This document shows positions 6,588 to 22,049 of a stretch of DNA of 64,000 nt, piece by piece; position 1 is the first letter of the stretch, and every line of letters starts with the position of its first letter. This stretch comes from Actinomycetes bacterium (GTDB lineage Bacteria > Actinomycetota > Actinomycetes > Nanopelagicales > Nanopelagicaceae). The stretch spans positions 1,240,001-1,304,000 of the forward strand of contig OX376642.1 in the NCBI GenBank assembly GCA_947383695.1. The letters run 5' to 3'. The notes below the pieces were generated by a model. That model did no database searches. It had not been told where the DNA came from and worked only from the letters and a program-made list of their open reading frames with translations. The position numbers and the translations under genes were made by a program.

Positions 6588-6610
6588 GCCAAAAGTGTAT
6601 GGCAATCTCG

Positions 6611-6616: not shown

Positions 6617-6660
6617 AATAAATGTTATATAGAGACACGCATTCAAAGCCTTTTGACTAC

Positions 6661-6676: not shown

Positions 6677-6708
6677 ATCGCCTTATTCCCCTTGAATTAA
6701 GTCACTTG

Positions 6709-6727
6709 TGTCGATGAAAAATCGACA
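6709..6727. repeat. inverted repeat upstream of the importer binding protein
   Basis: TGTCGAT-GAAAA-ATCGACA has perfect seven-base arms. It lies just upstream of a candidate -10 (TACTAT, 6733-6738), a position suited to repression of the rightward importer operon. It is unrelated in sequence to the repeat at 6661-6676 and to the GGTnnnACC sites. Confidence 0.5.
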
Positions 6728-6756
6728 CGACCTACTATGAGAGGTAATAGAAATCA

Positions 6757-8076
6757 ATGAAGATTAAGAAGCTTCGTTCAAAGATCGCAATTGCAGCATC
6801 TCTCGCGTTATCGGCAGGCCTTGTTGCAACAGGTCTTCCTTCAGCGCAAGCAGCTGGATTGCAACCAACTGCAGCACAACTAGCTGCATGGAAGGGTAAG
6901 GAAATTACTTACTACTTCTATAACGACAGCCAGGCAGAACTTGACACAACTAAGTCACAAATTGCTGACTTTGAGAAGTTAACTGGCGCAAAAGTTAAGC
7001 TTGATGTAATTCCTTACACAAGCTTGGACACACAGCTACAGGCTCGTTTGGCTGCAGGCAATGCTCCAGATGTTGCACGTCTGAATAACCCAGGTCTTTA
7101 CATCAAGGACTCTCTAGATCTAGAGAAGTACTTGGGACGTAAATATGCTGCTGAATTCCTAAAGGGTTCAACTCTTCAGGTTACACACCCAACAACTAAG
7201 AAGTTAATCGGTGTTCCATACGACCTTACAGTGAACGGTCCATTTATTAACGTTGACATGTTCAAGAAGGCCGGAGTTGCTGTTCCTACTTCATGGAACT
7301 GGACAGAACTAGTTGCAGCAGGTAAGAAAGTTCAAAAGGCAACTGGATCTGAATACGCCTTTGCAATTGATAAGTCTGGGCACCGCGTTTCTACAGCCAT
7401 GAGCCACTTCGGTGCATATATGGTTGATAAGAACCAAAGAAACGTTCTTCCAACTTCAAAGTTCCGTGCAGAAAAAGCTATCAAGATCATTACTGATCTT
7501 TACAAGGCAGATCAAGCACCTCGCGACCTATGGATAGGTACAGGAACAAAGTACTCATCACCAACAGCTATCTTCTTAGCGCAACAGACTCCAATTTTCT
7601 TCTCAGGTAACTGGCAGGTCGCAGCACTTGCTAAGGATGCAAAATTTGACTTTGCGGCAGTTCCAAATCCTAAGGAGCTCAATGGTGGAGGATGGCCTGG
7701 CGGTAAATTCTTAGTTGCGTTTAATGCAAGTAAGACGCCTGACTTGGCAGCATACTTCTTGTACTTCTTGGCTGATACAGCACAAATGGAGCAGATGGAT
7801 AAGAACGCATTCTGGCTGCCAACACGTGCTGACCTTGTTGCACAAGGCGTTAAGTACGCAACACGTACAGCAGATATGGGTGTCTTCCAAGCAGATGCTG
7901 CAAAGACACCAGCTGCTGCTTATGGAATCCAGTCAGTACCAACTCTTACTGGAAATATCTATAACAAGTTGCGCGATTTGATGACTGAAGTTATTGCAGG
8001 AAAGATCACTGCAAAGCAAGCAGTTCAGACTCAGATCGACTTCATTGATGCTCAGCTCGCAACACTCAGGAAGTAA
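6757..8076 (+). CDS. carbohydrate ABC transporter substrate-binding protein
   Basis: A 439-residue family 1 extracellular solute-binding protein. It has a basic N-terminus and a Sec signal peptide ending in SAQAAG near residue 33; there is no lipobox. The body has the usual EITYYFYNDSQAELDTTKSQ-type first strand and PDVARLNNPG region. GAGGT stands eleven bases before the ATG. It is the first gene of the rightward operon with two permeases, an unrecognised large protein and GH105, so it probably binds uronate-containing oligosaccharides. No ATPase gene is present, so a shared ATPase encoded elsewhere is inferred. Confidence 0.9.
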   Translation: MKIKKLRSKIAIAASLALSAGLVATGLPSAQAAGLQPTAAQLAAWKGKEITYYFYNDSQAELDTTKSQIADFEKLTGAKVKLDVIPYTSLDTQLQARLAAGNAPDVARLNNPGLYIKDSLDLEKYLGRKYAAEFLKGSTLQVTHPTTKKLIGVPYDLTVNGPFINVDMFKKAGVAVPTSWNWTELVAAGKKVQKATGSEYAFAIDKSGHRVSTAMSHFGAYMVDKNQRNVLPTSKFRAEKAIKIITDLYKADQAPRDLWIGTGTKYSSPTAIFLAQQTPIFFSGNWQVAALAKDAKFDFAAVPNPKELNGGGWPGGKFLVAFNASKTPDLAAYFLYFLADTAQMEQMDKNAFWLPTRADLVAQGVKYATRTADMGVFQADAAKTPAAAYGIQSVPTLTGNIYNKLRDLMTEVIAGKITAKQAVQTQIDFIDAQLATLRK

Positions 8077-8096
8077 TTGCATATAAACTACTTCTT

Positions 8097-9008
8097 GTGA
8101 TTAATTCAAGTAATGCGGCTAACCGCCGGCGTTCAGTTATTAACTGGCGCCGGCGGTTAATGCCGTACCTGTTTGTTGCACCAAACATGTTGATTTTCAT
8201 AACCTTTATTATCTGGCCAGCAATACGTGGTTTTCAGATTTCTTTCTACGACAGTATCGATGGACGCACATTTACCCCGGTTGGCACCGGCAATTACAAA
8301 GCGATCTTTGGTGATCCCACCGTTGCAGAGGTTGCGAAAAACACCGCCATCTATGTCGTGTTTTACGTAATTATTTCAACTTTACTTTCAATCGCCTTTG
8401 CACTGATTGTTAATGAACAAAAATTCGCAAAAGGATTCTTCAGAGCAATTCTCTTTTTACCGGTAATGCTTTCTCCAATTGTCGTCGGACTTATTTGGAA
8501 TGATGTACTCGATCGCAAAGTTGGCCCACTTAACGCTTTATTGCAAGCTATAGGTGGCGGTAGTCCAGGATGGTTAGTTGAACCAAAACTTGGAATGATG
8601 GCTGTTATCTTTGTCGGTGTTTGGGTTCACTTAGGCTTTTACTCAATTATTTTGTTGGCCGGACTACAGGGAATTGATAGAAGCTTGTTAGAAGCCGCGG
8701 CTATGGATGGTGCGACACGCCCTCAGATTATTCGGACAATCATTCTTCCGCTACTAAAGCCAACAACATTAGTTATCTTGATTTTGGCGACTATTCATGG
8801 CTTCCAGTCTTTCGACTTTATTTATACATTGACTGGCGGTGGACCTTTAGGTGCCACAACTTTAATTGTTCAATACATTTACGATCGTGCTTTCCAAACG
8901 CCGATCCAGTATGGACTTGGTAGCGCAGCGGGAGTGATTTTGTTCATGATCATATTTGCCTTTACAGCGCTTAACTTCCTACTCGGAAAGAAGCGTGAGG
9001 CAATATGA
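8097..9008 (+). CDS. carbohydrate ABC transporter permease (MalF/UgpA type)
   Basis: A 303-residue membrane permease with about six hydrophobic segments and the EAA loop ATPase-contact motif EAAAMDGATRPQIIRTIILP near residues 200-220. GTG at 8097 is the only accepted start codon upstream of the conserved MPYLFVAPNM stretch and gives a normal basic cytoplasmic tail (NRRRSVINWRRR). It has no good Shine-Dalgarno sequence; ATG at 8160 is possible but would leave almost no tail. The first codons form a very stable hairpin (8120-8159), which may lower permease output relative to the binding protein. The gene is ATGA-coupled to the next permease. Confidence 0.9.
   Translation: MINSSNAANRRRSVINWRRRLMPYLFVAPNMLIFITFIIWPAIRGFQISFYDSIDGRTFTPVGTGNYKAIFGDPTVAEVAKNTAIYVVFYVIISTLLSIAFALIVNEQKFAKGFFRAILFLPVMLSPIVVGLIWNDVLDRKVGPLNALLQAIGGGSPGWLVEPKLGMMAVIFVGVWVHLGFYSIILLAGLQGIDRSLLEAAAMDGATRPQIIRTIILPLLKPTTLVILILATIHGFQSFDFIYTLTGGGPLGATTLIVQYIYDRAFQTPIQYGLGSAAGVILFMIIFAFTALNFLLGKKREAI
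8120..8159 (+). other. stable hairpin at the start of the permease gene
   Basis: TAACCGCCGGCG (8120-8131) pairs perfectly with CGCCGGCGGTTA (8148-8159). Inside it CAGTT (8134-8138) pairs with AACTG (8142-8146) around a three-base loop. There is no T-run, so it is not a simple terminator. It sits between the binding-protein and permease genes, where such structures often set unequal expression. Confidence 0.7.
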
Positions 9009-9880
9009 GCAAACTCCAAGAGCGGGCATCTGCAAATAAGTGGAGCTCTATGGGCGGCAAGAAGCCACCTTCAGTAGGAACCATTCTTAGAACAACTTTT
9101 CTTTTGGCAATGACTTTTGTCATTTTGGCTCCAGTTCTTTGGTTTGTACTTTCATCCTTTAAAGATGCAACAGACTTAGGCGCAAGACCACCAAAGATTT
9201 TGCCTACACGTTGGGCTTTTGAGAATTACACCGAAGCTTTCCAGATGTATAACTACACCCGCTACTTTATGAACAGCGTATTCGTGACCTCAGTTGCAAC
9301 GGTTCTTACATTGTTGATCAATTCTATGGCGGCTTATGCCTTTGCAAAGTACAACTTCAGAGGGCGTGATGGCCTGTTTGTCATGACGCTTGCAATGATC
9401 ATGATTCCATTGCAGGTTATTTTAATTCCAATTTATTTGGTCGTTTCATCTTTAGGACTAGTTAATACCTACTGGGGAATGATTATTCCTGCAGCTGCTA
9501 CCCCGACGGGTGTTTTCATCATTCGCCAGTACATGTTGACGATCCCTGATGAACTGATTGAGGCAGCTCGTATTGATGGCGCAGGCGAATTTAGAATCTT
9601 TGCACGAATCGTTTTGCCACTTTGTCGTCCAGCTTTAGCGGTGGTCGCAATCTTCTCAATTCTGTGGCGTTGGAACGATTTCCTATGGCCACTTTTGATT
9701 GCGCAAAAAGAAGAGCTCTACACACTTCCAGTTGCCTTGGCACTCTTAAATGGGCAGCTAGTGGTTCCTTACAACATTGTTTTGGCGATGTCAGTTATGT
9801 CAATCATTCCAGTCTTGTTTATGTTTGTTTTCATGCAACGTCAAATTGTCCAAGGAATTGCTCAGACTGGAATCAAGTAG
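9005..9880 (+). CDS. carbohydrate ABC transporter permease (MalG/UgpE type)
   Basis: A 291-residue inner permease partner of the preceding gene, with which it has an ATGA overlap. Six hydrophobic segments are apparent. The EAA motif reads EAARIDGAGEFRIFARIVLP near residues 185-205. The C-terminus FMQRQIVQGIAQTGIK is typical of the MalG subgroup. The following large gene begins about 46 bases after its stop. Confidence 0.93.
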   Translation: MSKLQERASANKWSSMGGKKPPSVGTILRTTFLLAMTFVILAPVLWFVLSSFKDATDLGARPPKILPTRWAFENYTEAFQMYNYTRYFMNSVFVTSVATVLTLLINSMAAYAFAKYNFRGRDGLFVMTLAMIMIPLQVILIPIYLVVSSLGLVNTYWGMIIPAAATPTGVFIIRQYMLTIPDELIEAARIDGAGEFRIFARIVLPLCRPALAVVAIFSILWRWNDFLWPLLIAQKEELYTLPVALALLNGQLVVPYNIVLAMSVMSIIPVLFMFVFMQRQIVQGIAQTGIK

Positions 9881-9926
9881 TTCACCAGTCTGGAGAATTT
9901 CCTCAACGAAGGAAGAGGTCAGAAAA

Positions 9927-12638
9927 ATTCCACGCTTCACAGATAACTTCAATCGCACGATTCATTTACTTGATAACAACGGTTTCATCCGCGATTGGCT
10001 AATAACTAAAGCTTGGATTACCCCTGCCGATGACTTAGGCAAATTACTCAAAGACTCAGGAGATCCCTTTGGAAAAGATGGTCGTTGGGTCTTAACAAAT
10101 GGTCCAGATATCGCGCCATTGAAAGCCAAGATCTATAAGAATCTACCTTTCACCACCAACCAAACGATGCCGGATGTAGTTGAAGGTGGCGCAGTTTCAT
10201 GGAAAGCGCCTGGAACCGGTCAGATCAACACAGACACATGGACTCGAATTCATACAGGTCATGATGGGTACGCGGACTGGAGTCACTTCTCATATACCCC
10301 TGAATACCGTCATTCATTAATGGCAACGCAATTAGAAATAGATCAACCTGAATGGCGAAACATTGTTGTCCAAAGTCAGGGCCCGGTTCAAGTTTGGCTC
10401 AATGGAGAGTTGGTACTGAGTACTGATTTATTTGGTTATATGCAACCACTCACTCATTCGATTAATACTCTGCTCCCTTCTGGAATTAGCACTTTAATCA
10501 TTTCTCAGTGGCAAATCTCTTTACGAGAAGTACGCCACGCTGTTCGTGTAAAGATTGAAGGATTACCAGTTCGTATTGTTATTCCATCTCAAGGTGCTGA
10601 TGAGTATGCCTCAGAAATTGCAGAGCGCGAACTTGAAAACATCGCTTTGGAGCGATGGGCTAGAACCACAGATACCGTTGAATTTAGAGGTTCTCCTGGG
10701 CTTCGCGTCCGAATTAAAGAGAGAAATACTCAGGGTGATGGCGTAGCCGTAACCTTCAAGCAAGGTAAAGCTAAGGTAAAAGTAAGTGAAATTCGAAGTG
10801 CAGCAAAGAAAGCTGAAAAGGCAACCGCGGCCATTGACGGTGATGTAACAGCAACTATGTTAGATACTGGAGAGATATTCCTAGAGCTTCGGTTGGATTC
10901 ACCCAACACACCTGTTTTTCGAACATTTAGAACTGCTTATGTCCCAGAACGTGTACGGACAACGGTTCCAAAGAGTTCTCCAAAGATTTGGCGCTCGGAG
11001 GTAGTTGATCACGTAGCAGACAGTTATGCGTCATCTGCTCGTGCGCTTGCACGCCTTGAAAAGAACTCAAAGTACGTTGTTACCGCGGAGGACTTAAAGC
11101 CTGCGCTATCAATGATCACATCACGAGCAGATTGTGCTGACTTTGAAGCTGTTGGCCTAGTTCATATCTTGAATAAATTCCCGGATAATCAATGGGAAAA
11201 GGGTCTTCGCGAAGAGGTAAAAGAGACACTTTTGAATTTCAAGTATTGGATTGAACATCCAGGACTTGACGCGATGTGTTACTTCACCGAAAATCACCAG
11301 TTTGTTTGGCACACAGCGGAGCATTTGATTGGTGATTTCTTTGCAAAAGAAACTTTTGCCAACGCAAAGATGTCCGGTACAGACCATTCTGAGCATGGTC
11401 GTGCCATGGCGCTAGATTGGTTAAAGCTAAAGCTTGAAGGCGGATTTAGTGAATACGACTCAAACGCTTACTTAGCGATCGATACCCTTGCCTTGGTTTC
11501 ACTGATCGAATACTCCCCCGACAAGGAGATTCGTCAGTTCTCAGAAGCGCTGCTCGACAAGTTGATGTTTTCATTAGCGAGTAACTCTTGGCGTGGTGTA
11601 CACGGTGCTGCACACGGTCGTAGCTATACAACAACATTGCGTTCATCTCGATTTGAAGAAACCGCTCCAATAATGTGGGCCTTGTGGGGAATGGGTGCAC
11701 TTAATTTAGCTGTACTTCCAGTAACTACTTTGATTACATCAAAGAAGTATGTGCTTCCGCCTATGATCGTAAAGGTGGCTCATTCGCTCAACAAAACTTG
11801 GCATGGTCGTCAGGTCTACCGCGGAAAGTACCGTTTCACCAGCGATTTACTTGAGCGGCCATATGCTTCTGATCTTCATGTATGGCGCACTACAGATGGA
11901 ATGCTTTCATCTGTTCAAGATTACAGAGCAGGTTTACCTGGATTACAAGAGCATGTATGGGGTGCAACCCTTTCGACTGAGGTACAGGTCTTTGCTAGTT
12001 ATCCCGCTGCCTTTAGTCATGCGACTTCGGTTCGACCAAATGCATGGGCAGGACACTTGGTTCTGCCACGTGTTCGACAATATGAGAATGTGATCCTTGC
12101 GATTTATGCGCTCAATGATCAGCTATATCCAGACTTTACGCACCTCTGGTTCCCAACACCGTGGATGGATGAGTTCACCCAAAAAGGTTCTTGGATCGCA
12201 GGTCGTGTAGGAAATGGTTATATCGCTGTTGCAACTCCTGGTGGATTTTCTCCACTTAAAAGCGGTGACACCGCCCATCAAGAATGGACACCAAAGGGCA
12301 ATGGAGCACTCTATGTTTCAATTCTCGGTGACAAGAAGAGTTACGGAGACTTTAAGAGTTTTGTACGTAAGTTATCTGAACCGAACTTTGATGAGAAGAA
12401 CTTATCCATTTCTTGGAAACACAAACATCGCTTTGAGTTGCATTGGACTGGACCGTTCCTTGTAGATGGATTAAGTGAGCAACTCGAGGGTGGTTTACCA
12501 GAATTAGCACCTCGACTTGATAATCCTGCCGTTGCACTTGAATCTACTGATTCAATCCTTGATGCAGAATTTGGTAAAGAAAAGCTTCGAATTGATGTTG
12601 TTAACGGAAAGCGACTTAATCCAAAGTCACAGGTGTAA
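9927..12638 (+). CDS. large cytoplasmic protein of unknown family, probably polysaccharide-active
   Basis: About 903 residues. I do not recognise a named family. The N-terminal ~200 residues look like a beta-sandwich carbohydrate-binding type region (VQVWLNGELVLSTDLFGY). Residues ~370-630 are helical and rich in WHTAEH, GFSEYDSNAYLA and HGRSYTT motifs, reminiscent of alpha/alpha-toroid glycan lyases and hydrolases. The C-terminal third is beta-rich. There is no signal peptide. No ATG, GTG or TTG in frame lies between the permease stop and the conserved region; ATT at 9927 follows AGGAAGAGG by eight bases and is my chosen start. The next in-frame ATG (10167) has no Shine-Dalgarno sequence. Between an importer and GH105, it probably works on imported uronate oligosaccharides. 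Confidence 0.75.
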   Translation: MPRFTDNFNRTIHLLDNNGFIRDWLITKAWITPADDLGKLLKDSGDPFGKDGRWVLTNGPDIAPLKAKIYKNLPFTTNQTMPDVVEGGAVSWKAPGTGQINTDTWTRIHTGHDGYADWSHFSYTPEYRHSLMATQLEIDQPEWRNIVVQSQGPVQVWLNGELVLSTDLFGYMQPLTHSINTLLPSGISTLIISQWQISLREVRHAVRVKIEGLPVRIVIPSQGADEYASEIAERELENIALERWARTTDTVEFRGSPGLRVRIKERNTQGDGVAVTFKQGKAKVKVSEIRSAAKKAEKATAAIDGDVTATMLDTGEIFLELRLDSPNTPVFRTFRTAYVPERVRTTVPKSSPKIWRSEVVDHVADSYASSARALARLEKNSKYVVTAEDLKPALSMITSRADCADFEAVGLVHILNKFPDNQWEKGLREEVKETLLNFKYWIEHPGLDAMCYFTENHQFVWHTAEHLIGDFFAKETFANAKMSGTDHSEHGRAMALDWLKLKLEGGFSEYDSNAYLAIDTLALVSLIEYSPDKEIRQFSEALLDKLMFSLASNSWRGVHGAAHGRSYTTTLRSSRFEETAPIMWALWGMGALNLAVLPVTTLITSKKYVLPPMIVKVAHSLNKTWHGRQVYRGKYRFTSDLLERPYASDLHVWRTTDGMLSSVQDYRAGLPGLQEHVWGATLSTEVQVFASYPAAFSHATSVRPNAWAGHLVLPRVRQYENVILAIYALNDQLYPDFTHLWFPTPWMDEFTQKGSWIAGRVGNGYIAVATPGGFSPLKSGDTAHQEWTPKGNGALYVSILGDKKSYGDFKSFVRKLSEPNFDEKNLSISWKHKHRFELHWTGPFLVDGLSEQLEGGLPELAPRLDNPAVALESTDSILDAEFGKEKLRIDVVNGKRLNPKSQV

Positions 12639-12640
12639 TT

Positions 12641-13741
12641 ATGGCTGGTGAAGATACAACTTCGAGCGCTCTTGAAGCGCCACCGTTAACTCCTATTTCT
12701 AAGGATTTATTGACTCCGAATTTCTTAAGAGAAACAGCTAGCCGCATCATCGATGCAACCTGGCAGGCTGGTCTGCCTCAATGGTCGTGGGGTGAAGGTG
12801 TCTATCTACTGTCTGAAGTTCGATATCACGAGACTGTGGAACAAGAGATCCCAACAAAATTGATTGACTGGTACGCAAACAGAGGAGTCCTCACCTCTGG
12901 GCACATCAATAATGTTGCACCCGGTGCTGCTGCTTCAAGAGTTCATGCACGTGGATTAATGGATGCATCTGAAACAAATATCTTGCTGGAAAAATGGGTA
13001 ATGGACCCGTCCTCTGCAACCAGAGCTGCAAATGGAGCTGTCGAGCACTGGCCTGGCGGGGTCTGGGCAGATACCTGTTACATGATGGGAACATTTCTTC
13101 TCAATCATGGCGTGGGGACGAAAAACCTTTCGTATATCGAATTCATTGGTGATCAATTAGTTGCGCATATTGAGCTATTACAAAATCCCACAACCAAACT
13201 CTTTGCTCATGGCTCGCACAGAGGTGAAACTCTGTGGAACTACTGGGGCCGCGGCAATGCATGGATGTCGCTGTCTGCTGTCGAGTTTCTCGATGCATGT
13301 GAGGCCTTAGGGATAAAACCCAAATCACATGATGTAGTACAGAAAGCGCTGAAAGATCAATTACTCGCCCTTATTCCGCTACTTCCAGATTATGGAATTT
13401 GGGATGTGCTTGTAGATCACCAAGTGGAGAACAAAGGTGTTCTTGAAACATCTGCGACTGCAGGATTTGGGTCAGCGATGATTCGTGCAATACGACACTT
13501 CCCTGAGTTAAAGAAAGAACTACATGCTGCAGGAACTACGGCAATTGCGGCCGCACTAACTTATGTTGATAGTTCGGGAGTTCTGACTCGCACAAGTGCG
13601 GGAACAGTTTTGCAGCTTATACCTTTTGGTTACAGTGTAATTCGAAGTGACCGTATGCAATTGTGGGGACAAGGTTTAGCTTTGAATGCTATTTCAGTAA
13701 TGCTCGAACCAAACAAGAATTTTGTTGCAATTAACAACTAG
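12641..13741 (+). CDS. GH105-family unsaturated glucuronyl/galacturonyl hydrolase
   Basis: A 366-residue alpha/alpha-barrel enzyme. Motifs of the YteR/YesR group are present: WSWGEGVYLL (residues 48-57), HWPGGVWADTCYMMG (136-150) with the likely catalytic Asp144, and YWGRGNAWMS (201-210). The family removes the 4,5-unsaturated uronic acid from the non-reducing end of oligosaccharides, giving the substrate of KduI. There is no signal peptide, so it acts after uptake. AGGTG precedes the ATG, which lies two bases after the previous stop. Its 3' end overlaps the convergent aldolase gene by four bases. Confidence 0.88.
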   Translation: MAGEDTTSSALEAPPLTPISKDLLTPNFLRETASRIIDATWQAGLPQWSWGEGVYLLSEVRYHETVEQEIPTKLIDWYANRGVLTSGHINNVAPGAAASRVHARGLMDASETNILLEKWVMDPSSATRAANGAVEHWPGGVWADTCYMMGTFLLNHGVGTKNLSYIEFIGDQLVAHIELLQNPTTKLFAHGSHRGETLWNYWGRGNAWMSLSAVEFLDACEALGIKPKSHDVVQKALKDQLLALIPLLPDYGIWDVLVDHQVENKGVLETSATAGFGSAMIRAIRHFPELKKELHAAGTTAIAAALTYVDSSGVLTRTSAGTVLQLIPFGYSVIRSDRMQLWGQGLALNAISVMLEPNKNFVAINN

Positions 13742-14622
13742 TTCCAACTAGTCCAAGGCTTTGCATGGGTATCAACGATTTCAGCCAGTTGTTCTAGGCG
13801 TGGAATAGAGATTTCACGAAGCGCCTTTGGAATATCTGGTGAGCTCACAATGTCAGCCCACACAGCGCGTCCTGCAAGGAATCCACTTGCTCCACCCATT
13901 GCACATGCCTTTACCGCATCATTAAAGAATGGTTGCTTGACGCCATTTGAAAGAACGACCCACGGAGAGCCAATCGCCTCTGAAATTCTGTCGGCGTTCT
14001 TAGTCACAAGGTTTAAATTCCCTTCACCATGGAATGGAACCTCTGCCTTGTAAAGATCTGGTTTCCACGCCGCAGCTTCACGTGCCGCGATGATCAACTC
14101 TTCTTCACGATTAAAACTACGAGAAGTATCTGTTGGAGGCTTTACGATGATTTCAATAATTGATGGCAAGCCAGAAATGTCGCACAACTTATTAAAATCT
14201 TCTACTAATTTTGCGCGCACATCAGGTGATTCATCATTGCGCCATAAAACAAGAAACTTAAGTCCAACGCTTCCAATATCTCGCATACGAATTGGATCAA
14301 CATCTGGATCAATTGCAGTATCTGTAGCGGCTCCACCTGGAGGACCTACTAATAAATCTGCTGCTGCGATTAGCCCACATCCACCTTGCAGCGCTTTCTG
14401 ATCAACAATTGCATCAATTCCAAACTCTTGATCAACTAAGAGTGCTGAAGCGTATGGTGATAGCTCGCGAGCAACATCAACTTTGAATTGAGTCAACTGT
14501 GAATCAGGTACTGGTGTGCTTTGATGAGCTGCAAACATTCCACGCAATGCTTCACGTTGATCAACTGCAACCATTGCTAGGGCTCCTGATGGGCGTGCCA
14601 AATTAGTTAAGGGTTTTCTCAT
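13738..14622 (-). CDS. class I aldolase, sulfofructose-phosphate aldolase (YihT)-like
   Basis: A 294-residue LacD/YihT-type aldolase. From recalled sequence it follows E. coli YihT closely: AVDQREALRGMFA (residues 19-31), LSPYASALLVDQEF (54-67), LVLWRNDESP, DLYKAEVP with the Schiff-base Lys192 (YihT Lys193), VVLSNGV with Ser225 (YihT Ser226) and GASGFLAGRAVW with Arg252 (YihT Arg253). YihT splits 6-deoxy-6-sulfofructose 1-phosphate into DHAP and sulfolactaldehyde. The similarity to LacD tagatose-bisphosphate aldolases is weaker and they are longer. It is the last gene of the operon, overlapping the kinase stop by one base (TGATG). The exact substrate is not proven. Confidence 0.82.
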   Translation of the reverse strand: MRKPLTNLARPSGALAMVAVDQREALRGMFAAHQSTPVPDSQLTQFKVDVARELSPYASALLVDQEFGIDAIVDQKALQGGCGLIAAADLLVGPPGGAATDTAIDPDVDPIRMRDIGSVGLKFLVLWRNDESPDVRAKLVEDFNKLCDISGLPSIIEIIVKPPTDTSRSFNREEELIIAAREAAAWKPDLYKAEVPFHGEGNLNLVTKNADRISEAIGSPWVVLSNGVKQPFFNDAVKACAMGGASGFLAGRAVWADIVSSPDIPKALREISIPRLEQLAEIVDTHAKPWTSWN

Positions 14623-15512
14623 CAGTGTGCCTCCAGGTATGCATCGAGTTCAGTTGTTGTTGGAATCATTGATTGACCATCCAGGCCGCGGCAAGAAAGT
14701 GCAGCAACCGCATTGGCGCGACGCAACGCTTCTTGTAATGAATGGCCCTGAATTAGTTGGGCTACAAGGGCTCCATGAAATACATCGCCAGCACCTAACG
14801 TGCTTGTTACTTCGACCTTAAATCCAGGTGCTGTAACAAGCCCAGTTTCAGGTGAAAAAGCTGCACTTCCTTCTGAGCCTTGAGTAGCTACAACGGTATT
14901 TCCAGCCTTCATTGAATCATTTTCTAGTGCCACAGCCAGATCAATGCCTGGATAACGAAGTGCCATTTGTCGATCAGTTGGAACAAACAAATCAACAACT
15001 ATCGGATCAAAATTTTCAACACCATAGCCTGCATCAAAAGAAATCTGAGCTCCTTTACCGCGAGCGATACCTAACTCATCTAAGCGTTTGATACCCACGT
15101 GATCGACATGTACCCATTGCGCATTTGCAATTAACTTCTTGGCTGCTTCGTTGATTGGTGCTTGAACAACAGGTTGGCGCGTGCTGATGGCACGGGCACT
15201 GTGTTCCTGTGAAGCAACAATCACACTTCCAGCTGTGGCGGTTGTTCCAATAGAGATACCCGAGGTATCAACGCCTTCTTGGGAAAATATTCGCAAAACT
15301 TCTTTACCATCTGCATCGTCGCCGATCGTTCCGACAATCGCGGTCTTAACGCCTAAACGACTCAACGCTACAGCTGCAACCGCTGCCGGACCACCGCCTG
15401 CACGTGAAATTTCATTGGCAAGGACACGTTCATCTTCTGATGGGTACTTATCGACTAGTGCAATTGTGTCGATCGTAATTACACCAACGCAAACCGCCTG
15501 AACAGAACTCAA
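14622..15512 (-). CDS. PfkB-family sugar kinase, YihV-like
   Basis: A 296-residue ribokinase-family kinase. GGGPAAVAAVALSRLG (residues 39-54) and TLGAGDVFHGAL (238-249, catalytic Asp243) closely follow E. coli YihV, the sulfofructose kinase. However, by hand alignment the residues I recall as contacting sulfonate in YihV (Lys27, Asn109, Arg138) correspond here to Arg29, Thr111 and Val139, so the substrate may be another ketose or the pocket is rebuilt. TTG at 15512 gives a TTGA overlap with the regulator gene. The aldolase follows immediately, implying that the kinase makes the 1-phosphate that the aldolase cleaves. Confidence 0.82.
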   Translation of the reverse strand: MSSVQAVCVGVITIDTIALVDKYPSEDERVLANEISRAGGGPAAVAAVALSRLGVKTAIVGTIGDDADGKEVLRIFSQEGVDTSGISIGTTATAGSVIVASQEHSARAISTRQPVVQAPINEAAKKLIANAQWVHVDHVGIKRLDELGIARGKGAQISFDAGYGVENFDPIVVDLFVPTDRQMALRYPGIDLAVALENDSMKAGNTVVATQGSEGSAAFSPETGLVTAPGFKVEVTSTLGAGDVFHGALVAQLIQGHSLQEALRRANAVAALSCRGLDGQSMIPTTTELDAYLEAH

Positions 15513-16222
15513 TTGCTATCTTTTTTCTTTGCATCTGCCAAAGCGGTAGCACGGGCTCCCGTTATGTGCTGCAGAGTCAACTTAGAGGCCAGCTCTCCAT
15601 CGCCATTTTCGATGGCAGCCAAAATCTCATTATGTTCATTGCGTGAAATTTCAGAACGTCCAGGCAACCGCAAGGTTGTCTCCATCGACATCTTCATTAC
15701 ATCTTGCAATACATTTAAAGTCTGGTTGATGAAACGGTTGCCCGCAATCCCGACAATTGTTAAGTGAAACTTTGCATCCAAAGACTGCAGTTGATCAAAA
15801 TCAATTGGCTCAATAGCTGTAATTGTGTCGATTTGATTCAAGGTAGCTCGCAGTAAACGAATATCCTCTTTTGTGGCCTTTTCTGCTGCCCACTTAGAGG
15901 CTGGAACTTCAAGAACTTCGCGGGCATCAAATAGTTCATTAAGTCCATGAGTTTTAGTCATCACCGATGCACGTAGCTCTTGAGCAACAACTGGTTCCTG
16001 AACAAAAGTTCCCTGACCATGTTTAATCTGAACTAATCCTTGTGCCTGCAAGATATGCAGAGCTTCTCGCAAACTTGGGCGGCTTACTTCGAGTAGATCA
16101 GCAAGCTGACGTTCTGGCGGCAACTTATCCCCCGGTAAGAGTTTCTGAAGTTCAATAAGCTCTATTAATTGGGTCGCTATTCTGGCGGCACGTTGAGGTG
16201 CTAGTGGCGCTACTGCACTCAT
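15509..16222 (-). CDS. FadR-type GntR-family transcriptional regulator
   Basis: A 237-residue regulator with an N-terminal winged helix (LPPERQLADLLEVSRPSL then HGQGTFV, residues ~30-72) and a C-terminal FCD ligand domain. The FCD metal ligands are visible as DAKFHLTI, NEHNEIL and LQHI. It probably senses a sugar or sugar acid and controls its own operon. FadR-type proteins bind GGT-N3-ACC cores, and such a site lies in front of this operon (20888-20905) and twice at 882-972. It sits two bases after the permease stop and overlaps the kinase by four. Confidence 0.92.
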   Translation of the reverse strand: MSAVAPLAPQRAARIATQLIELIELQKLLPGDKLPPERQLADLLEVSRPSLREALHILQAQGLVQIKHGQGTFVQEPVVAQELRASVMTKTHGLNELFDAREVLEVPASKWAAEKATKEDIRLLRATLNQIDTITAIEPIDFDQLQSLDAKFHLTIVGIAGNRFINQTLNVLQDVMKMSMETTLRLPGRSEISRNEHNEILAAIENGDGELASKLTLQHITGARATALADAKKKDSN

Positions 16223-16224
16223 TA

Positions 16225-17037
16225 CTACCCCTTTACCGCGCCGGCGGTTAATCCAGCGATGAATGAACGTTGCATGAACAGGTACATGATAACCATAGGA
16301 AGTGAAGCAACCATAACCGCAGTGAAAAGCATAGAGAAACTCACAAAGTACTCACCACGGTAAGCCAACATTGCAAGAGGCAAAGTTTTCTTCTCTGACT
16401 CCTGAATCAATAAAAGCGGCCACAATAGATCATTCCAGTTGATAACAAACAAGAAAATTGCGGTTGCACCCATCGCTGGCTTTGAGAGTGGAAGTGCGAT
16501 TGAACGATAAATTCGTAATGGTGATGCTCCATCAACCTCAGATGCCTCATACATTTCCTTTGAAACTTGCTTGAAAAATGCACTGAGAATAAAAATGGAA
16601 ATAGGAAGCGTTGTTGTCACATTAATCAAAATCAAACCGATGTATGAGTTGGTTAGACCTAAATCTCTAAAGATGTAATAGATCGGAACAAGATTAATCT
16701 GCGCAGGAATTGCTAGGCCCAGGGCAAATAGTCCAGCCAGCACCTTGCCCGAAACTGTGATCATTCTGGCGATGGCAAAAGATGCAAGACTTGCAAAAAT
16801 TAAAGTTAAAATAACTGATGAAACAGTGACTAAGACGCTGTTGCGAAAGCTGATATCCAGATCGCTGTCGCTCAAAAGACGGCTGTAGTTACCCAGACTC
16901 CAAGTCTCAGGCAACGATAGTGGCTTGTTGTAAACCTCGGCATCTGTCTTGAATGAGCCCAAAACTACAATCAATGAAGGCACAAGAATCATTGCAGCAA
17001 AGGTGACTAGAGCTATAACTCGAGATACTTTATACAT
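16225..17037 (-). CDS. carbohydrate ABC transporter permease (MalG type)
   Basis: A 270-residue permease with six predicted membrane spans. The EAA motif EASEVDGASPLRIYRSIALP lies near residues 170-190 and the C-terminus is the common RSFIAGLTAGAVKG. It follows the partner permease by twelve bases, with AAAGG before its ATG. It forms the importer of the isomerase-kinase-aldolase operon together with the upstream permease and binding protein. The ATPase must be supplied from elsewhere. Confidence 0.92.
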   Translation of the reverse strand: MYKVSRVIALVTFAAMILVPSLIVVLGSFKTDAEVYNKPLSLPETWSLGNYSRLLSDSDLDISFRNSVLVTVSSVILTLIFASLASFAIARMITVSGKVLAGLFALGLAIPAQINLVPIYYIFRDLGLTNSYIGLILINVTTTLPISIFILSAFFKQVSKEMYEASEVDGASPLRIYRSIALPLSKPAMGATAIFLFVINWNDLLWPLLLIQESEKKTLPLAMLAYRGEYFVSFSMLFTAVMVASLPMVIMYLFMQRSFIAGLTAGAVKG

Positions 17038-17049
17038 CTTGTGCCTTTC

Positions 17050-17898
17050 TCACTTTTCATACCTCTTGCCAAAAGTTTGGCGCTGTAGCCAGGTAATCAG
17101 AATCATTACGATGACCATAAAGATTGTCTGCGCAGCTGCATACCCCAACCGCAATTCATTGAACAGGGTTAGATAAATCAATGTGCTGAAAATGTTGGTT
17201 GAATTGTTTGGTCCAGCCGTTGAATTTGTCATAACCATGATCAAATCAAATGCTCGGAAAGATTGAATTGTTGTATAGGCCATTACGACTAATGTTGTTG
17301 GCATTGCCATCGGCCACGTTACATTTCTAAACTGCTTCCAACGTGAGGCGCCATCGACCTCGGCTGCTTCATACAACTCCTTTGGAATCTGCTGCAAGCC
17401 GGCGATATAAACGACCATCATCTGTCCTGTGTGGAACCAAACCTGAGTAAATGCGATGGCATACAAAGCACTTTTCTCATCACCTAGCCAGTTAAGGGCG
17501 AAAGAATTCAGCCCTAACTTATTAAAAAATAGATTCAAAGCTCCAAAATTTGGATCATAAAGAAATAGCCAAATCATTCCGACCGAGACTGAACTGAGAA
17601 TTGTCGGGAAGAAATATAAAGTTCTAAGTGCAATATTTACCTTTGAATTGTTTACTAGATAAACTGCAAACAGCAAGGCAAATATAGTTTGAAAAATCAC
17701 AACTAGAAAAGTGAACTCTAAATTGTTACCCAGAGTCTTATAAAAGAGGTCGTCATTAGTAAGTAGGTTTGTAAAATTTCTAAACCCAACAAACTCTGGC
17801 TCAGTTATTCCATCCCAGCGACGAGTGGCAAATTGTAAATTCTGCAAAGCTGGGTAGAGATAGAAGGCTAGAAACAAAAGTAGCGCCGGAAGCCCCAT
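17050..17898 (-). CDS. carbohydrate ABC transporter permease (MalF type)
   Basis: A permease of at least 282 residues, with EAAEVDGASRWKQFRNVTWP as EAA motif. The annotated ATG at 17898 has no Shine-Dalgarno sequence and leaves no cytoplasmic tail. The frame stays open upstream through a strong hairpin to near 18000 and would encode a basic tail (RKKRKKDSLTYYL) typical of this family, but no ATG, GTG or TTG occurs there. The true start is therefore unclear: an unusual codon may be used, or the 5' end may be altered. The pattern repeats that of the other MalF-type permease at 8097. Confidence 0.85.
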   Translation of the reverse strand: MGLPALLLFLAFYLYPALQNLQFATRRWDGITEPEFVGFRNFTNLLTNDDLFYKTLGNNLEFTFLVVIFQTIFALLFAVYLVNNSKVNIALRTLYFFPTILSSVSVGMIWLFLYDPNFGALNLFFNKLGLNSFALNWLGDEKSALYAIAFTQVWFHTGQMMVVYIAGLQQIPKELYEAAEVDGASRWKQFRNVTWPMAMPTTLVVMAYTTIQSFRAFDLIMVMTNSTAGPNNSTNIFSTLIYLTLFNELRLGYAAAQTIFMVIVMILITWLQRQTFGKRYEK

Positions 17899-17945
17899 TA
17901 AATAATAGGTTAGGGAATCCTTTTTTCTCTTCTTACGGGTACCCG

Positions 17946-17980
17946 AAAGACCGCTCCCACTTTGTGTGGGAGCGGTCTTT
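17946..17980 (-). terminator. intercistronic hairpin between binding protein and permease
   Basis: AAAGACCGCTCCCAC (17946-17960) pairs perfectly over 15 bases with GTGGGAGCGGTCTTT (17966-17980) around a five-base loop. In the leftward transcript the stem ends in UUU then CGGG, so it is at best a leaky terminator or an mRNA 3' end protector. That would leave more binding-protein than permease message. Confidence 0.75.
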
Positions 17981-17999
17981 GTTACGGATATCTTGTTAA

Positions 18000-19445
18000 T
18001 TACCCAGCCAGCTTTTGCTTAATCTGCTTAGAGAAGTCAGCAAGAACTTCATCGGTGTTTTTGCCACCAACGATCTGGATTAGCGCATCTTGAGTCAAGT
18101 CTGAAACAGCTGTGTTCAGAATCAAGAATCGAGGTGCGAGCATTGTGTTCTTTCCTTGGAAAGGCGATGTATTAAGCAGGTCTACGTTTGTGTATTCAAC
18201 ATCAAGAACGTTGACGTGCTGTGTAGTCGCATTTCCATAGATTGCTGCTACAGGACCTGTCGCTAAGTATGACAAGAACGAAAGTGCAATCTTCTGATTA
18301 GTGGATGATGACTTTGCGTTCACGCTTAGGTTGAATGTGTTGTTCATGATTCCTTCAGCAATTACCTTGCCATCTGTTAAAACCATGCTCATCAAGTTCA
18401 TCTTTCCACCAAGTTCTGGATTGAGTGCCTTTACAGCTCCCATTGAGAAAGTACCTGTTGGAAGAATTGGTGACTTACCTGTAGCAAATAGGTTAAGTGC
18501 AGATGCTTCTGTAACTCCAGTTGGGTTATCTGGGAAACATCCTGCTTGGCGTAGCTTGACGTAGATGTCAGCAACACCCTTGAACCAAGGTGAGGTTAGG
18601 TCAATCTTTCCAGAATTGAGATCTTCAAGGTTCTTTGAAAGATCTGCGTAACTTGCTGCAGAGTTCATCAAAGCAGAGTTTGAAATCTGGGCAGCTTGTC
18701 CACGAGTTGCTCCTGGCCATGCAAGAGGAACATATCCCTTGGCCTTTGCATCCTTACACCAAGCGGTCCATTGAGTTAGGTTCTTTGGAAAAGCCCACTT
18801 CTCTTTAGCCCAGATTTCAGTGTTATAGACAGGGTTGTTAAATAGGTAGTGGTAAGGAACACCTAGCACCTTGCCATCTACGGTACCCGCAGTAAGTCCC
18901 TTAGAAACAAGGTTCTGCTTAACGAAGCGTTGGTTTGAAATGTTTAGAGTTAAACCGCTGTTTACGAAATCATTGAAAATTGATCCGCGTGCAGTTGCAA
19001 ACAATGCAGCACGTGGATTTGCCAAGATTTGCACACGAGCAGTTGCGTTGTAATCAGTTGTAGTTTTGATTACCTGCGTAATTTTAGTACCTGGGTAGCG
19101 AGCTTCGTAGTTCGAAATAATCAACTCGAAGTGAGCCTTATCTTCTGGGCGGTAATGCCAGAATTCAATTGATCCCTTTGGAGGAGTTAAAGCTGCAACT
19201 GGGTTTGCATTTGTTGCGGCCAGACGTACACGCTGCCAAGTGAGCTTGCCACCTGAGCTAGCTGCACAAACGAGAGACTTAGAGCTTGTTCCTGTGCTTA
19301 CGCCTTCTGTTGTGCACTTCTTACCGAATGTTGGAACTTCGGCAGAGTTAGCAACTGCAAGTGGAGTGATAACAAGTGCCGCAGCAACTGTTGCAACTAC
19401 ACCAGCACGGAGTGAAGCAAAGGCTTTGTGTCCTTTAGTTTTCAT
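18000..19445 (-). CDS. carbohydrate ABC transporter substrate-binding protein
   Basis: A 481-residue family 1 solute-binding protein. The signal peptide ends in AVANSAEV near residue 36. Between it and the binding domain lies a small segment with Cys44, Cys60 and Trp70 (CTTEG...SLVCAASSGGKLTW), which is not part of the usual fold. The binding domain starts near GSIEFWHYRPEDKAHFE. The ATG at 19445 has AAGGAT seven bases upstream; an in-frame start at 19547 overlaps the isomerase gene and is rejected. It is the second gene of the isomerase operon. Its ligand would be the operon's sugar or its glycoside. Confidence 0.9.
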   Translation of the reverse strand: MKTKGHKAFASLRAGVVATVAAALVITPLAVANSAEVPTFGKKCTTEGVSTGTSSKSLVCAASSGGKLTWQRVRLAATNANPVAALTPPKGSIEFWHYRPEDKAHFELIISNYEARYPGTKITQVIKTTTDYNATARVQILANPRAALFATARGSIFNDFVNSGLTLNISNQRFVKQNLVSKGLTAGTVDGKVLGVPYHYLFNNPVYNTEIWAKEKWAFPKNLTQWTAWCKDAKAKGYVPLAWPGATRGQAAQISNSALMNSAASYADLSKNLEDLNSGKIDLTSPWFKGVADIYVKLRQAGCFPDNPTGVTEASALNLFATGKSPILPTGTFSMGAVKALNPELGGKMNLMSMVLTDGKVIAEGIMNNTFNLSVNAKSSSTNQKIALSFLSYLATGPVAAIYGNATTQHVNVLDVEYTNVDLLNTSPFQGKNTMLAPRFLILNTAVSDLTQDALIQIVGGKNTDEVLADFSKQIKQKLAG

Positions 19446-19477
19446 TTTTATCCTTGCTTTAGAGGGTTTGTTGTTGT

Positions 19478-20878
19478 TTACCATTCTGTGAGGGGTATCC
19501 CTAACATCTTTGCCATTTGGCGAATACCTGGTCGCACATCGATCCACGAGATGACCAAGTGGTGCGGGTATCCACCAGTGACTATTCCATTCACTAATGC
19601 AGCGGCATCAGGTTGAGTGATAACCGTTGCTGTATTGCCTTGGAAGTGATTGGGAGCTGGGATTGATTCCCCTCGGCTCACAACCATGCGTAAACCCGTG
19701 CTATTGCTCGGATCTACATCCCGATCAATGCGGAACAGTGTTACTGGTCCGGTCTTGAGCGGAAAATTGCCTGCAACGCCTAGTTTGCGATTGCAGTGGA
19801 TTGATTGCGTTGCATTCTTTGGATCAGCTGCAAGCTTTGTTGCTGCAGATCCGCAGTGCCACAAACGCACTAAACCTTGTGATGCATCTAGGTCGACGAT
19901 ATCTACAAGGTAGTTTTCATCAGAACCAAGTGCCTCGCACATCATCATTGTTACTGCGCCTAAAACATCCCGTTCGCAGGTAGTTACTGTGCCGCGGTCG
20001 GCAAGGCGTCCAAGTGATGAACAAATGCATGCGCCCATCTCAGTTGGGAACTCAGGCCAGCAGCGAATCGCGATTGCATCAAGTAGCTCATCTTCACGCC
20101 ACTTATCTAGAGCAACTTCTACGCCATAAACTTTCTTTGCCTCATCAACATTTACTGAAGCAAGTGATGGTTGTGCAGCAAGAGCACCTGCATACGCTAA
20201 TTCACGTGCTTCTTCTTTAACCTCTGAGATTTTTCCAAAGGCATCATCAATTGTGATCTGACGAATATCTAAACCAAATAGCGAACGGATTTGCTGTGCG
20301 TCATAAACACAAGGAGTAAAACCAATTGGTGCATCTCCAACTGCGCCGATCTTCTTACCCTTCATCCAATCAAAAGCTTTTTGTGCATCTGCTTCAGAAC
20401 CAAGTTCACCAGTTACATTCTTTGGAGTTGCTGCTTCAGGTAACTTTCCTGCGAGCGCATCTTTAATCGCTGCACGCACTTGTGGCTCGTCAGCGTTGCC
20501 GTGAATGTGGCGAATAGATTGACCAACATTCATCAACGCATGTGCTGCAAGATTTACACCGCACATTGAATTCAACTTCAATCGCTCCCCGACCTCACCA
20601 GGTTCGCGCATTGACCATCCAAGAACAGGTCCCTTAACTTTTCCAAGGAGTTCAACCGCTGGTGATGCATCTGAAAAAGAGGCCATAAATAAAATATGTA
20701 GGTCAGCATCTGGAAGTGTTACCGCTGCGACATCTTCAACTGTCATCACGAGATCTGCTGGACCCACAACCGCTGCCCCTAGCTCGGTAAGCAAAGCACG
20801 AGCGGAATCAAAGTTGGCTTGGGCACATGTGAGGTCGAAGGTAGGACGCGCTAGTGCGACGAGAGCAACGGTGCTCAT
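19478..20878 (-). CDS. L-fucose/arabinose isomerase-family sugar isomerase
   Basis: A 466-residue protein with the two-part fold of the fucose/arabinose isomerase superfamily. The C-terminal half has IRCWPEFPTEMGACICSSLG, TTCERDVLGAV, LWHCG, NFPLKTGPVTLFRID and GYPHHLVI, which include the Mn-binding Glu, Asp and His candidates. It should interconvert an aldose and a ketose, supplying the ketose to the kinase. The ATG at 20878 has a strong GGAGG four bases before it and is the first gene of the seven-gene operon. Fucose-isomerase-like enzymes replace YihS in some described sulfoquinovose pathways. L-fucose, L-rhamnose or another 6-deoxy sugar is an alternative substrate. Confidence 0.82.
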   Translation of the reverse strand: MSTVALVALARPTFDLTCAQANFDSARALLTELGAAVVGPADLVMTVEDVAAVTLPDADLHILFMASFSDASPAVELLGKVKGPVLGWSMREPGEVGERLKLNSMCGVNLAAHALMNVGQSIRHIHGNADEPQVRAAIKDALAGKLPEAATPKNVTGELGSEADAQKAFDWMKGKKIGAVGDAPIGFTPCVYDAQQIRSLFGLDIRQITIDDAFGKISEVKEEARELAYAGALAAQPSLASVNVDEAKKVYGVEVALDKWREDELLDAIAIRCWPEFPTEMGACICSSLGRLADRGTVTTCERDVLGAVTMMMCEALGSDENYLVDIVDLDASQGLVRLWHCGSAATKLAADPKNATQSIHCNRKLGVAGNFPLKTGPVTLFRIDRDVDPSNSTGLRMVVSRGESIPAPNHFQGNTATVITQPDAAALVNGIVTGGYPHHLVISWIDVRPGIRQMAKMLGIPLTEW

Positions 20879-20984: not shown

Positions 20985-22049
20985 TTATTTCTGCAGTAGA
21001 AAGGCTCTGGTCCGACCATTGACCTCAAAGCTGGGCCACTCTGGGTCCACTGAGAGCATTTTTACGCCTGAATCAGTGGCCACAATGGTGTCTTCAGCCT
21101 TCCACCCCTTGCCCGTTGGATTCCAGGCGATGGGTTGGTTGGCGGCAATCAAGCGGGTGCTGGTCTGGTTAGCTGGCCAATCTCGAGGCAAGAACCCTGA
21201 TGGACCGCCCTGGTGATGTTTGGTCCACTCATCGGCATCAAAGCCATTGGCTGGATATGCAGCAATGGCTGCGTTGATTGGATCTGAAAATGGTTTACCA
21301 ACAACGGTTGCATCCAACAAAGCTGCCTCAACTTTATAGATTGATGTGTAATCCGACACCATCTGATTGGTTACTTCACCAAAAGTAACGATTCGAGTCA
21401 CCGATGCGATGAGGCCTTTTCGCTTTGCACAAATTGATGCAGAGACTCGATTACCAACAACTGCATCCGTTGGTAATGGATGTCTAAATTTATGAACACG
21501 ATCTTGGCCGGCAACACCTAGGAACGCGATTTCAAGATCTGCTTGCCATAAAGAATGTGTTATCAAACCTGCAGCATCAATTTCGCGATCTGTACTTTCA
21601 ACCTGCTTCATTGCATTTCCTAATGCGACTGCAGCATCCACACAGATTTCTTTGAATCGCGCGAGATCAGATTCAATTAATGATGCGCGAATCATTTCGA
21701 CTTCAACGCCAAGATCAATTCGGTCAGCACCTGGTTGATCACTTCCTACCTTTGGTCCTGTCGGCAGAAGTGGATCACGACCTTCTGACCACTTAATTGT
21801 TTGGATCGTTACTTCACTAGGTAACTCTTCGGCAATCAAACGTGGTGCTTCTACAACATTAGTAATTGCAGTTGCGGAATCGTGGGTGATGATCAAATCA
21901 AAGCAGGCCATATCAATTGTTGTTGGAACATGTGCACGCCCTGCAATCGCCCAGGCTAAATTTGGATTACGGCGCAATACAAAGGCATCAAGGCCTTTGG
22001 CTTTCATAAGCTCGCGAAGCGGCTGAATTCGTTGATTAAATGCGCTCAT
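20985..22049 (-). CDS. M24 (creatinase/aminopeptidase P-like) family protein, degenerate active site
   Basis: A 354-residue pita-bread-fold protein with the creatinase-type N-terminal domain (LMKAKGLDAFVLRR). The C-terminal domain keeps HKFRHPLPTD and KHHQGGPSGFLPRD, then IAWNPTGKGWKAEDT. The usual paired Asp metal ligands are missing: the stretch where DxG...SDxTR is expected reads SICAKRKGLIASVTR. It belongs to an M24 subgroup with HHQGG and may not be a peptidase. It lies ten bases after the ABC ATPase gene and so is probably under the SAM-type riboswitch, suggesting a role in methionine or other sulfur-compound metabolism. Confidence 0.8.
   Translation of the reverse strand: MSAFNQRIQPLRELMKAKGLDAFVLRRNPNLAWAIAGRAHVPTTIDMACFDLIITHDSATAITNVVEAPRLIAEELPSEVTIQTIKWSEGRDPLLPTGPKVGSDQPGADRIDLGVEVEMIRASLIESDLARFKEICVDAAVALGNAMKQVESTDREIDAAGLITHSLWQADLEIAFLGVAGQDRVHKFRHPLPTDAVVGNRVSASICAKRKGLIASVTRIVTFGEVTNQMVSDYTSIYKVEAALLDATVVGKPFSDPINAAIAAYPANGFDADEWTKHHQGGPSGFLPRDWPANQTSTRLIAANQPIAWNPTGKGWKAEDTIVATDSGVKMLSVDPEWPSFEVNGRTRAFLLQK

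Follow-up and report, generated by a model that had tools for sequence, protein, structure and literature searches.

Genes for a predicted single-cell route from sulfoquinovose to sulfite in a freshwater actinobacterium of the Nanopelagicales

A 64,000-nucleotide stretch of an Actinomycetes bacterium of the Nanopelagicaceae (the window; contig OX376642.1, positions 1,240,001-1,304,000 within a 1.43-Mb single-contig genome) holds a seven-gene operon that, together with the genes beside it, probably encodes a single-cell route for the complete use of sulfoquinovose (SQ), the sulfur sugar of plants and algae. A common freshwater bacterium is predicted to do, in one cell, what is usually shared between two. 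SQ production is put at about 10 billion tons a year (PMC10755693); sulfoglycolytic bacteria are described as usually excreting C2-C3 sulfonates for others to cleave, both halves in one bacterium being unusual (PMC12421959). A study of SQ use by DNA stable-isotope probing identified Novosphingobium and Agrobacterium as the main freshwater degraders; Planktophila and names in Nanopelagic- are absent from its main text (PMC13372026).

In the predicted route, an ATP-binding cassette (ABC) importer would take up SQ or an SQ glycoside, and a sulfoquinovosidase of family GH188 would free SQ from the glycoside. An SqvD/SftI-like isomerase would convert SQ to sulfofructose, a YihV-like kinase would yield sulfofructose-1-phosphate, and a YihT-type aldolase would split this into dihydroxyacetone phosphate (DHAP) and sulfolactaldehyde (SLA). 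An aldehyde dehydrogenase from elsewhere in the genome, for which a core GabD is the candidate, may then oxidize SLA to sulfolactate; SlcC- and ComC-like dehydrogenases would invert the stereocentre, SuyAB would cleave sulfolactate to pyruvate and sulfite, and a YeiH-family exporter would dispose of the sulfur. Control of the operon would fall to a FadR-type regulator, perhaps of the type found with sulfolactate genes. Homology, gene order, co-inheritance and conserved residues are the observations from which each reaction, direction, substrate and control step is predicted.

Organization of the cluster

The seven operon genes are tightly spaced on the minus strand (Table 1). All lie where an initial annotation had placed them, in the order isomerase, transport, regulator, kinase, aldolase, and its proposal of a variant of Embden-Meyerhof-Parnas sulfoglycolysis (sulfo-EMP) is supported by an aldolase that groups with YihT, an isomerase that fits SqvD/SftI, and a GH188 gene in the same cluster. 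Beyond the span covered by that annotation, the window also holds SuyA, the start of SuyB, the GH188 gene and a gene for an M24-like protein. When the layout was compared across 18 stretches from other genomes holding the same isomerase type, 14 kept the complete order from isomerase to aldolase, which argues that the operon is not a product of chance; two, both of genus g8, are missing the aldolase alone, and the remaining two are ended by a stretch or contig edge. Relatives of the aldolase, 74-97% identical, occur at 41 loci (L070-L110) that include Candidatus Planktophila, IMCC19121, IMCC26103 and 'Candidatus Nanopelagicaceae'; the names 'Bifidobacterium breve' and 'Streptomycetaceae' among them we take to be mislabels.

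Aldolase, kinase and isomerase

Protein Data Bank (PDB) matches, residues and tree agree on a YihT-type class I sulfofructose-phosphate aldolase, a component of sulfo-EMP. The top PDB matches are sulfofructosephosphate aldolases/YihT at 252 and 241 bits (7ag1, E=4.2e-74), as against 73 bits for tagatose-bisphosphate aldolases and E=1.8e-19 or weaker for LacD structures, and on the LacD model TIGR01232 the protein scores 63.3 bits, below the cut-off of 432.2. In a tree of 33 rows, the YihT group holds 27, window protein included. A split with 98/96 support sets it apart from three Nanopelagicales paralogs (31-33% identical), two rows for LacD and one from a Rhizobium plasmid. The branch of this last row is very long, and support at the deeper forks is weak (75/45). 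The earlier view that the aldolase follows YihT is upheld, as is the alignment of Lys192, Ser225 and Arg252 with YihT Lys193, Ser226 and Arg253, which is not to say that these residues mark sulfo-aldolases. On the separation from LacD, the PDB scores and the profile scores, the tagatose/LacD and fucose readings are rejected.

For the kinase, said earlier to follow YihV, the top PDB match is indeed sulfofructose kinase (7ag6, E=4e-28; next, ketohexokinase at 2.6e-21). Its tree places it with the YihV group, with support (92/71) that falls short of the level starred in the tree and with long outgroup branches, so that this placement is only suggestive. Branching with tagatose, fucose or rhamnose enzymes, which the initial annotation had named as evidence to the contrary, is not seen for the aldolase, and the kinase tree only suggests as much.

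The isomerase matches the NCBIfam SftI model NF048012 over nearly its full length (E=4.5e-79), and SQ isomerase is its sole NCBIfam match. In Pfam terms it is of the Fucose_iso_C type, and no PDB sequence matches it at E<=0.1. A structure search with the predicted model (mean predicted local distance difference test, pLDDT, 86.2) returned L-arabinose, D-arabinose and L-fucose isomerases as all 41 matches at E<=0.001, with moderate TM-scores (0.49-0.56 by query) and root-mean-square deviations above 23 A, meaning that the isomerase and the matched chains do not superpose as a whole. YihS-type isomerases (PF07221) have no match in loci L070-L110; the window has the SftI/Fucose_iso_C type instead. 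The proposed fucose-isomerase-family enzyme in place of YihS is seen in a protein that fits SqvD/SftI, which on our reading are one isomerase type, with a predicted fold of the AraA/FucI type. A second, weaker SftI-like family, 20-21% identical, occurs in L051 and L052, with an ABC ATP-binding gene nearby and no SQ genes.

YihT-like proteins also occur in other settings. The paralog of 31-33% identity at L159 (6556-7476) and L160 (6790-7710), in other Nanopelagicales, lies next to genes that by eye resemble those for an FGGY-type sugar kinase and a phosphofructokinase, and probably serves a different sugar pathway. On a Cereibacter sphaeroides plasmid (L156), an ABC importer, a gene resembling succinate-semialdehyde dehydrogenase (SSADH), a YihT-like aldolase (44%) and a sugar kinase form one run, another candidate sulfosugar cluster.

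Sulfoquinovosidase and sulfolactate genes

The PDB entries matched by the GH188-type protein, 8qc3 and 8qc2 (E about 1e-102), are titled oxidoreductases only; 8QC2 is a GH188 crystal structure (PMC11465081), and GH188 is described as a family of NAD+-dependent sulfoquinovosidases with K107, Y136, R166, K172, E189 and H193 in contact with SQ (PMC10755693). Aligned by eye with 8qc3/8qc2, these residues correspond to K97, Y126, R156, K162, E179 and H183 (the mapping of His321 is uncertain), with R156 and K162 the conserved Arg and Lys of the sulfonate site. Leu170 of the reference protein is Tyr160 here, a known variant that defines a recognized Y160 group (PMC11465081). The Arg, Tyr and Lys are identical in the GH188 proteins of 17 relatives, and three genus-g8 proteins have Y158. 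Among 14 stretches with both genes, GH188 adjoins the aldolase in 12 and is parted from it by one 289-amino-acid open reading frame (ORF) in two; in all three genus-g8 stretches it lies upstream of the isomerase. We predict that the gene product acts on an SQ glycoside. A GH31 sulfoquinovosidase was considered and rejected, PF01055 having no match in the genome.

SuyB runs past the window edge. In L053, the part of the genome next to the window, it has 388 amino acids, and the operon strand continues there through SuyA and SuyB to a 2-hydroxyacid dehydrogenase at the SlcC position, an Ldh2-family (ComC-like) enzyme, a putative sulfate exporter of the YeiH family and a regulator resembling CsoR. 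The profile scan of L053 proteins gave no SuyB model match; the assignment is made because the protein is 56-73% identical to genes of Paracoccus versutus and Rhodococcus koreensis that stand beside SuyA-like and sulfate-exporter or SlcC/ComC-like neighbors, and among the 20 matches listed identity falls from 56.0% to 38.5%. SuyA and SuyB are encoded as separate small and large subunits, and their genes lie next to SlcC/ComC-like genes and one for a sulfur exporter. SuyAB is predicted to release sulfite from (R)-sulfolactate and, given this gene set, sulfolactate should go to pyruvate and sulfite in the same cell. The 'complete route to DHAP plus a three-carbon aldehyde' of the initial annotation holds as far as the DHAP-yielding set is concerned; it does not end there, with sulfolactate genes in the same cluster. 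The CsoR-like regulator, together with a rhodanese-domain protein that resembles CoA-disulfide reductases, follows these genes at 12890-14817 of L053; the pair has a possible role in sulfite or persulfide handling.

Co-inheritance across the order

Isomerase, aldolase, GH188 and SuyB were searched for in 296 genomes of the order. Genomes with only a weaker match (20 of 84 for the isomerase) or only paralogs at about 31-35% identity (4 of 49 for the aldolase, 46 of 109 for SuyB) were dropped, and none for GH188, leaving the isomerase in 64 genomes (five as short fragments), the aldolase in 45, GH188 in 64 and SuyB in 63. In the 108 high-quality genomes (>=90% complete, <=5% contaminated) the isomerase occurs in 32, all of which carry SuyB at 76% identity or more and 31 of which carry GH188 (G062 does not); all four genes are absent from the remaining 76. 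The aldolase is present in 25 of the 32, which are 25 of 25 outside genus g8; the seven without it all belong to g8. In less complete genomes the agreement is looser, with seven that have the isomerase and no SuyB and six that have SuyB and no isomerase.

In three of four g8 genomes checked there is no class II fructose-bisphosphate aldolase, and the fourth has a fragment only; the published Y158 cluster likewise has no aldolase (PMC11465081). SQ clusters without a YihT-type aldolase are seen in L036, L037, L162 and L163 (genus g8 and G282), the one in L037 sitting in a ribosomal protein region between map-like and rpsM-like genes (by eye).

The SLA step and alternative readings

Several observations weigh against complete SQ use in one cell. 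The isomerase scores 266 bits on an SftI model whose cut-off is 700, and the importer's binding protein has weak PDB matches only. Searches for a YihT-type aldolase came up empty in all 20 g8 genomes that carry cluster genes and in G282. In the sulfolactate half, the top model for the SlcC-position dehydrogenase is phosphoglycerate dehydrogenase, and the ComC-like enzyme reaches 198 bits of a cut-off of 500 on its top model, L-sulfolactate dehydrogenase. For the SLA step, no aldehyde dehydrogenase matches near the cluster, nor is there an aldehyde dehydrogenase or GabD-like match in the IMCC26103 locus L088, and a YihU-type SLA reductase is rejected, the best PF03446 match in the genome having E=4.9e-8. 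The 'SLA dehydrogenase' listed for the IMCC26103 cluster (PMC11465081) is, we think, the Ldh2/ComC-like gene.

Among the six PF00171 matches in the genome, the core GabD (L060, genome position about 1,365,700) is the best candidate SLA dehydrogenase. Judged by eye, it retains both Arg positions that PMC10599462 proposes as binding the sulfonate; SSADHs, which make up most of its top PDB matches, may retain them as well. It is 35-38% identical to GabD-like proteins of aldolase loci (42% for that of an enterobacterium, L131) and closer to them than four other aldehyde dehydrogenases of the genome in each of 11 comparisons, a ranking biased in its favor because those 11 were found with the same GabD as query. 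Its presence in 100 of the 108 high-quality genomes is a further point on the adverse side, since a gene so general to the order is not tied to SQ.

Could the cell carry out sulfoglycolysis only, oxidizing or reducing SLA and excreting the product, with the SuyAB block serving imported sulfolactate or 2,3-dihydroxypropanesulfonate (DHPS)? The two halves would then adjoin because both handle organosulfonates, and the absence of an SLA dehydrogenase from the cluster fits, as do SuyAB genes without SQ genes in the stretches shown of Rhodococcus koreensis and Paracoccus versutus. We nonetheless consider this unlikely: SuyB accompanies the isomerase in every high-quality genome that has it and in no other, and in Planktophila-type clusters GH188 lies between the halves, with all genes except GH188 on one strand.

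Readings that change the sugar fare worse. AraA/FucI-fold isomerases act on several sugars, which speaks for another 6-sulfonated hexose, such as sulfofucose via sulfotagatose. A tandem from sulfofucose through sulfolactate to sulfite is shown in Paracoccus, with the suggestion that PF00294/PF01791 relatives might act on sulfotagatose (PMC12421959). Against these stand the SQ-contacting residues kept in GH188 and an isomerase whose only NCBIfam match is SQ isomerase, and we judge such a substrate quite improbable. An ordinary tagatose- or fucose-type pathway for 6-deoxyhexoses or hexoses draws on superfamily-level matches to LacD models, ribokinase and Fucose_iso_C; the split of the aldolase from LacD, its 241-252 bits to YihT chains and the co-inheritance of GH188 and SuyB with the cluster make it very improbable indeed. 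Single-cell use of SQ through to sulfite remains the reading we prefer.

Relation to known systems

The combination is not new: a cluster of the same lineage and gene set, the GH188 'Y160' cluster of acI strain IMCC26103, is in print, listing SuyA/B, D-3-phosphoglycerate dehydrogenase, aldolase, kinase, regulator, ABC transporters and fucose isomerase (PMC11465081). Our locus L088 matches it gene by gene, without the uronate insert described below. There the gene sets 'could represent new sulfoglycolytic pathways', with no decision on the route; the isomerase is not identified as SqvD/SftI, and an M24 protein goes unmentioned. What is added here is the proposed route, the SqvD/SftI-like isomerase, the co-inheritance, the missing steps, the uronate insert, the apparently swapped transporter and the M24-fold protein. 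A 2018 paper is said to have named 'Candidatus Planktophila sulfonica'; the name suggests that its authors noticed sulfonate genes, and part of these findings is possibly described there.

With the sulfo-EMP pathway of E. coli and Arthrobacter (YihS, YihV, YihT) the window cluster shares its aldolase type and probably its kinase type, and Arthrobacter likewise uses GH188 and ABC import (PMC10755693, PMC8873060). It differs in an SqvD/SftI-like isomerase for YihS, in the added sulfolactate cleavage and in that no SLA reductase or dehydrogenase was found in the cluster; plain sulfo-EMP membership is rejected. With sulfo-EMP2 (SqvD, SqiK, SqiA) it probably shares the isomerase family, of the PF02952 type (PMC9594981), whereas its kinase is PfkB (PF00294) rather than PfkA and its aldolase class I (PF01791) rather than class II. 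SqiK (PF00365) and SqiA (PF01116) are not in the cluster, the one PF01116 gene lying more than 90 kb away, and plain sulfo-EMP2 membership is rejected as well. The tandem sulfofucolytic-SuyAB system of Paracoccus wurundjeri also joins sulfosugar splitting to SlcC, ComC and SuyAB in one cell; it, too, has no proven SLA dehydrogenase (PMC12421959), and its upstream half is an Entner-Doudoroff pathway on sulfofucose, in contrast to the EMP-type half predicted here for SQ.

Hybrid sulfo-EMP1/2 sets have been reported in Proteobacteria and Actinobacteria (PMC12890257). Our 80 aldolase loci comprise 41 Nanopelagicales-like, 26 gammaproteobacterial and 13 others, which were examined by tblastn (L111-L117, L120, L121, L127, L129, L137, L145); with L170 and L171 from the phylum sample, these others make 15, in 11 of which a YihT-type aldolase is paired with an SqvD-type isomerase (not in L111, L113, L127 or L129). 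A GH31-like gene is present in 10 of the 11 hybrid clusters, at 26-29% identity to YihQ, so that the call is at family level only, and no kinase match was found in L117. In Haloactinopolyspora (L114) and Actinophytocola (L137), kinase, aldolase, isomerase and importer adjoin SuyAB, GabD-like, SlcC and ComC genes. These show the same tandem idea with a putative aldehyde dehydrogenase of its own and lend independent support to a single-cell route.

An M24-fold protein

The gene upstream of the isomerase encodes a predicted prolidase/creatinase fold (pLDDT 92.7), and a counterpart lies upstream of the isomerase in all 18 stretches of the same isomerase type; the interval holds GH188 in three genus-g8 stretches and two opposite-strand ORFs in L048. 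Outside the order, it stands beside the GH31-like gene in 7 of the 11 hybrid actinobacterial clusters, and none was found in L114, L117, L137 or L145 within the DNA examined. Across 246 genomes sampled evenly from the phylum, M24 matches (E<=1e-30) turn up in 18 and isomerase matches (E<=1e-60) in eight. Three genomes give both the top three M24 scores (454-606 bits; next 278) and the top three isomerase scores (748-884; next 266), with the two genes at most 6 kb apart; among the 15 lower-scoring M24 genomes, G447 alone carries an isomerase match too, a lower-scoring one on a different contig.

At what we take to be the prolidase metal-ligand positions, only the last Glu (E319) is kept, S205, V217, G282 and N310 occupying the others (alignment by eye), and a normal metallopeptidase is unlikely. 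Among the matches listed in the open-licence literature, none links sulfoquinovose with creatinase, M24 or Xaa-Pro. We offer only as a tentative and rather doubtful proposal that about 30% of high-quality Nanopelagicales (32/108) are self-contained from SQ to sulfite, that the M24 fold marks an unrecognized catalytic step of actinobacterial sulfoglycolysis, and that g8 splits the sulfosugar differently. The step might, for example, be interconversion of SQ anomers, proposed because no YihR match was seen in the clusters.

Importer, regulator and uronate insert

Two replacements proposed in the initial annotation are both found: YihO gives way to an ABC importer, made up of a binding protein with two permeases, and the DeoR-type regulator to one of FadR type. 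The regulator shares 43-47% identity with those adjoining SuyAB genes in Rhodococcus and Actinophytocola, a figure without a background control.

Table 1. Features of the window in and around the predicted SQ cluster
Feature	Position	Strand	Basis
SuyB-like large subunit, (2R)-sulfolactate sulfo-lyase, 5' part	1..566	-	GD_AH_second + GD_AH_C
SuyA-like small subunit, sulfolactate sulfo-lyase, 108 amino acids	545..871	-	45% identity to gene before SuyB in Rhodococcus koreensis
GH188-type NAD+-dependent sulfoquinovosidase	974..2077	+ (convergent to operon)	8qc3 E=7.9e-103, 8qc2 E=1e-102; R156/Y160/K162
Inserted uronate cassette, outside SQ route: 2-keto-3-deoxygluconate (KDG) kinase, 2-keto-3-deoxy-6-phosphogluconate (KDPG) aldolase, glucuronyl esterase, KduD, KduI, ABC importer, ORF 9777-12638, GH88	2074..13741		profile matches; missing in 14 relatives' stretches holding both flanks
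Class I sulfofructose-1-phosphate aldolase, YihT type	13738..14622	-	7ag1 E=4.2e-74; tree
PfkB-family kinase, YihV-like sulfofructose kinase	14622..15512	-	7ag6 E=4e-28; tree
GntR/FCD (FadR-type) regulator	15509..16222	-	profile matches
ABC sugar importer permease 2	16225..17037	-	profile matches
ABC sugar importer permease 1	17050..17898	-	profile matches
Extracellular sugar-binding protein of importer, 481 amino acids	18000..19445	-	profile matches; ATG at 19445 preferred over listed ORF start 19547
SqvD/SftI-like sulfoquinovose isomerase, AraA/FucI-type fold	19478..20878	-	NF048012 E=4.5e-79; predicted structure
M24 (pita-bread) fold protein without 4 of 5 metal ligands	20985..22049	-	recurs in actinobacterial SQ clusters

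Identities of permease 1 and the aldolase do not run in parallel across the 31 loci with both genes: permease 1 is 89-90% identical in five loci with 89-91% aldolase identity and only 62-68% in the seven loci closest by aldolase (94-97%). The close permeases belong to P. lacus/IMCC26103-type genomes (importer region 16225-19445). This mismatch points to a separate history of the importer genes, with exchange of the transport module.

The 11.7-kb uronate cassette parts the SQ block, at the aldolase, from GH188 and SuyAB. The insert is missing in 14 of 14 stretches holding both flanking genes, on which ground a part for GH88 and the uronate genes in SQ use is rejected; its large ORF has no Pfam or NCBIfam match. 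One further genome, G236, has a similar distance between aldolase and GH188 and cassette-like permeases (L073), and seems to share the cassette.

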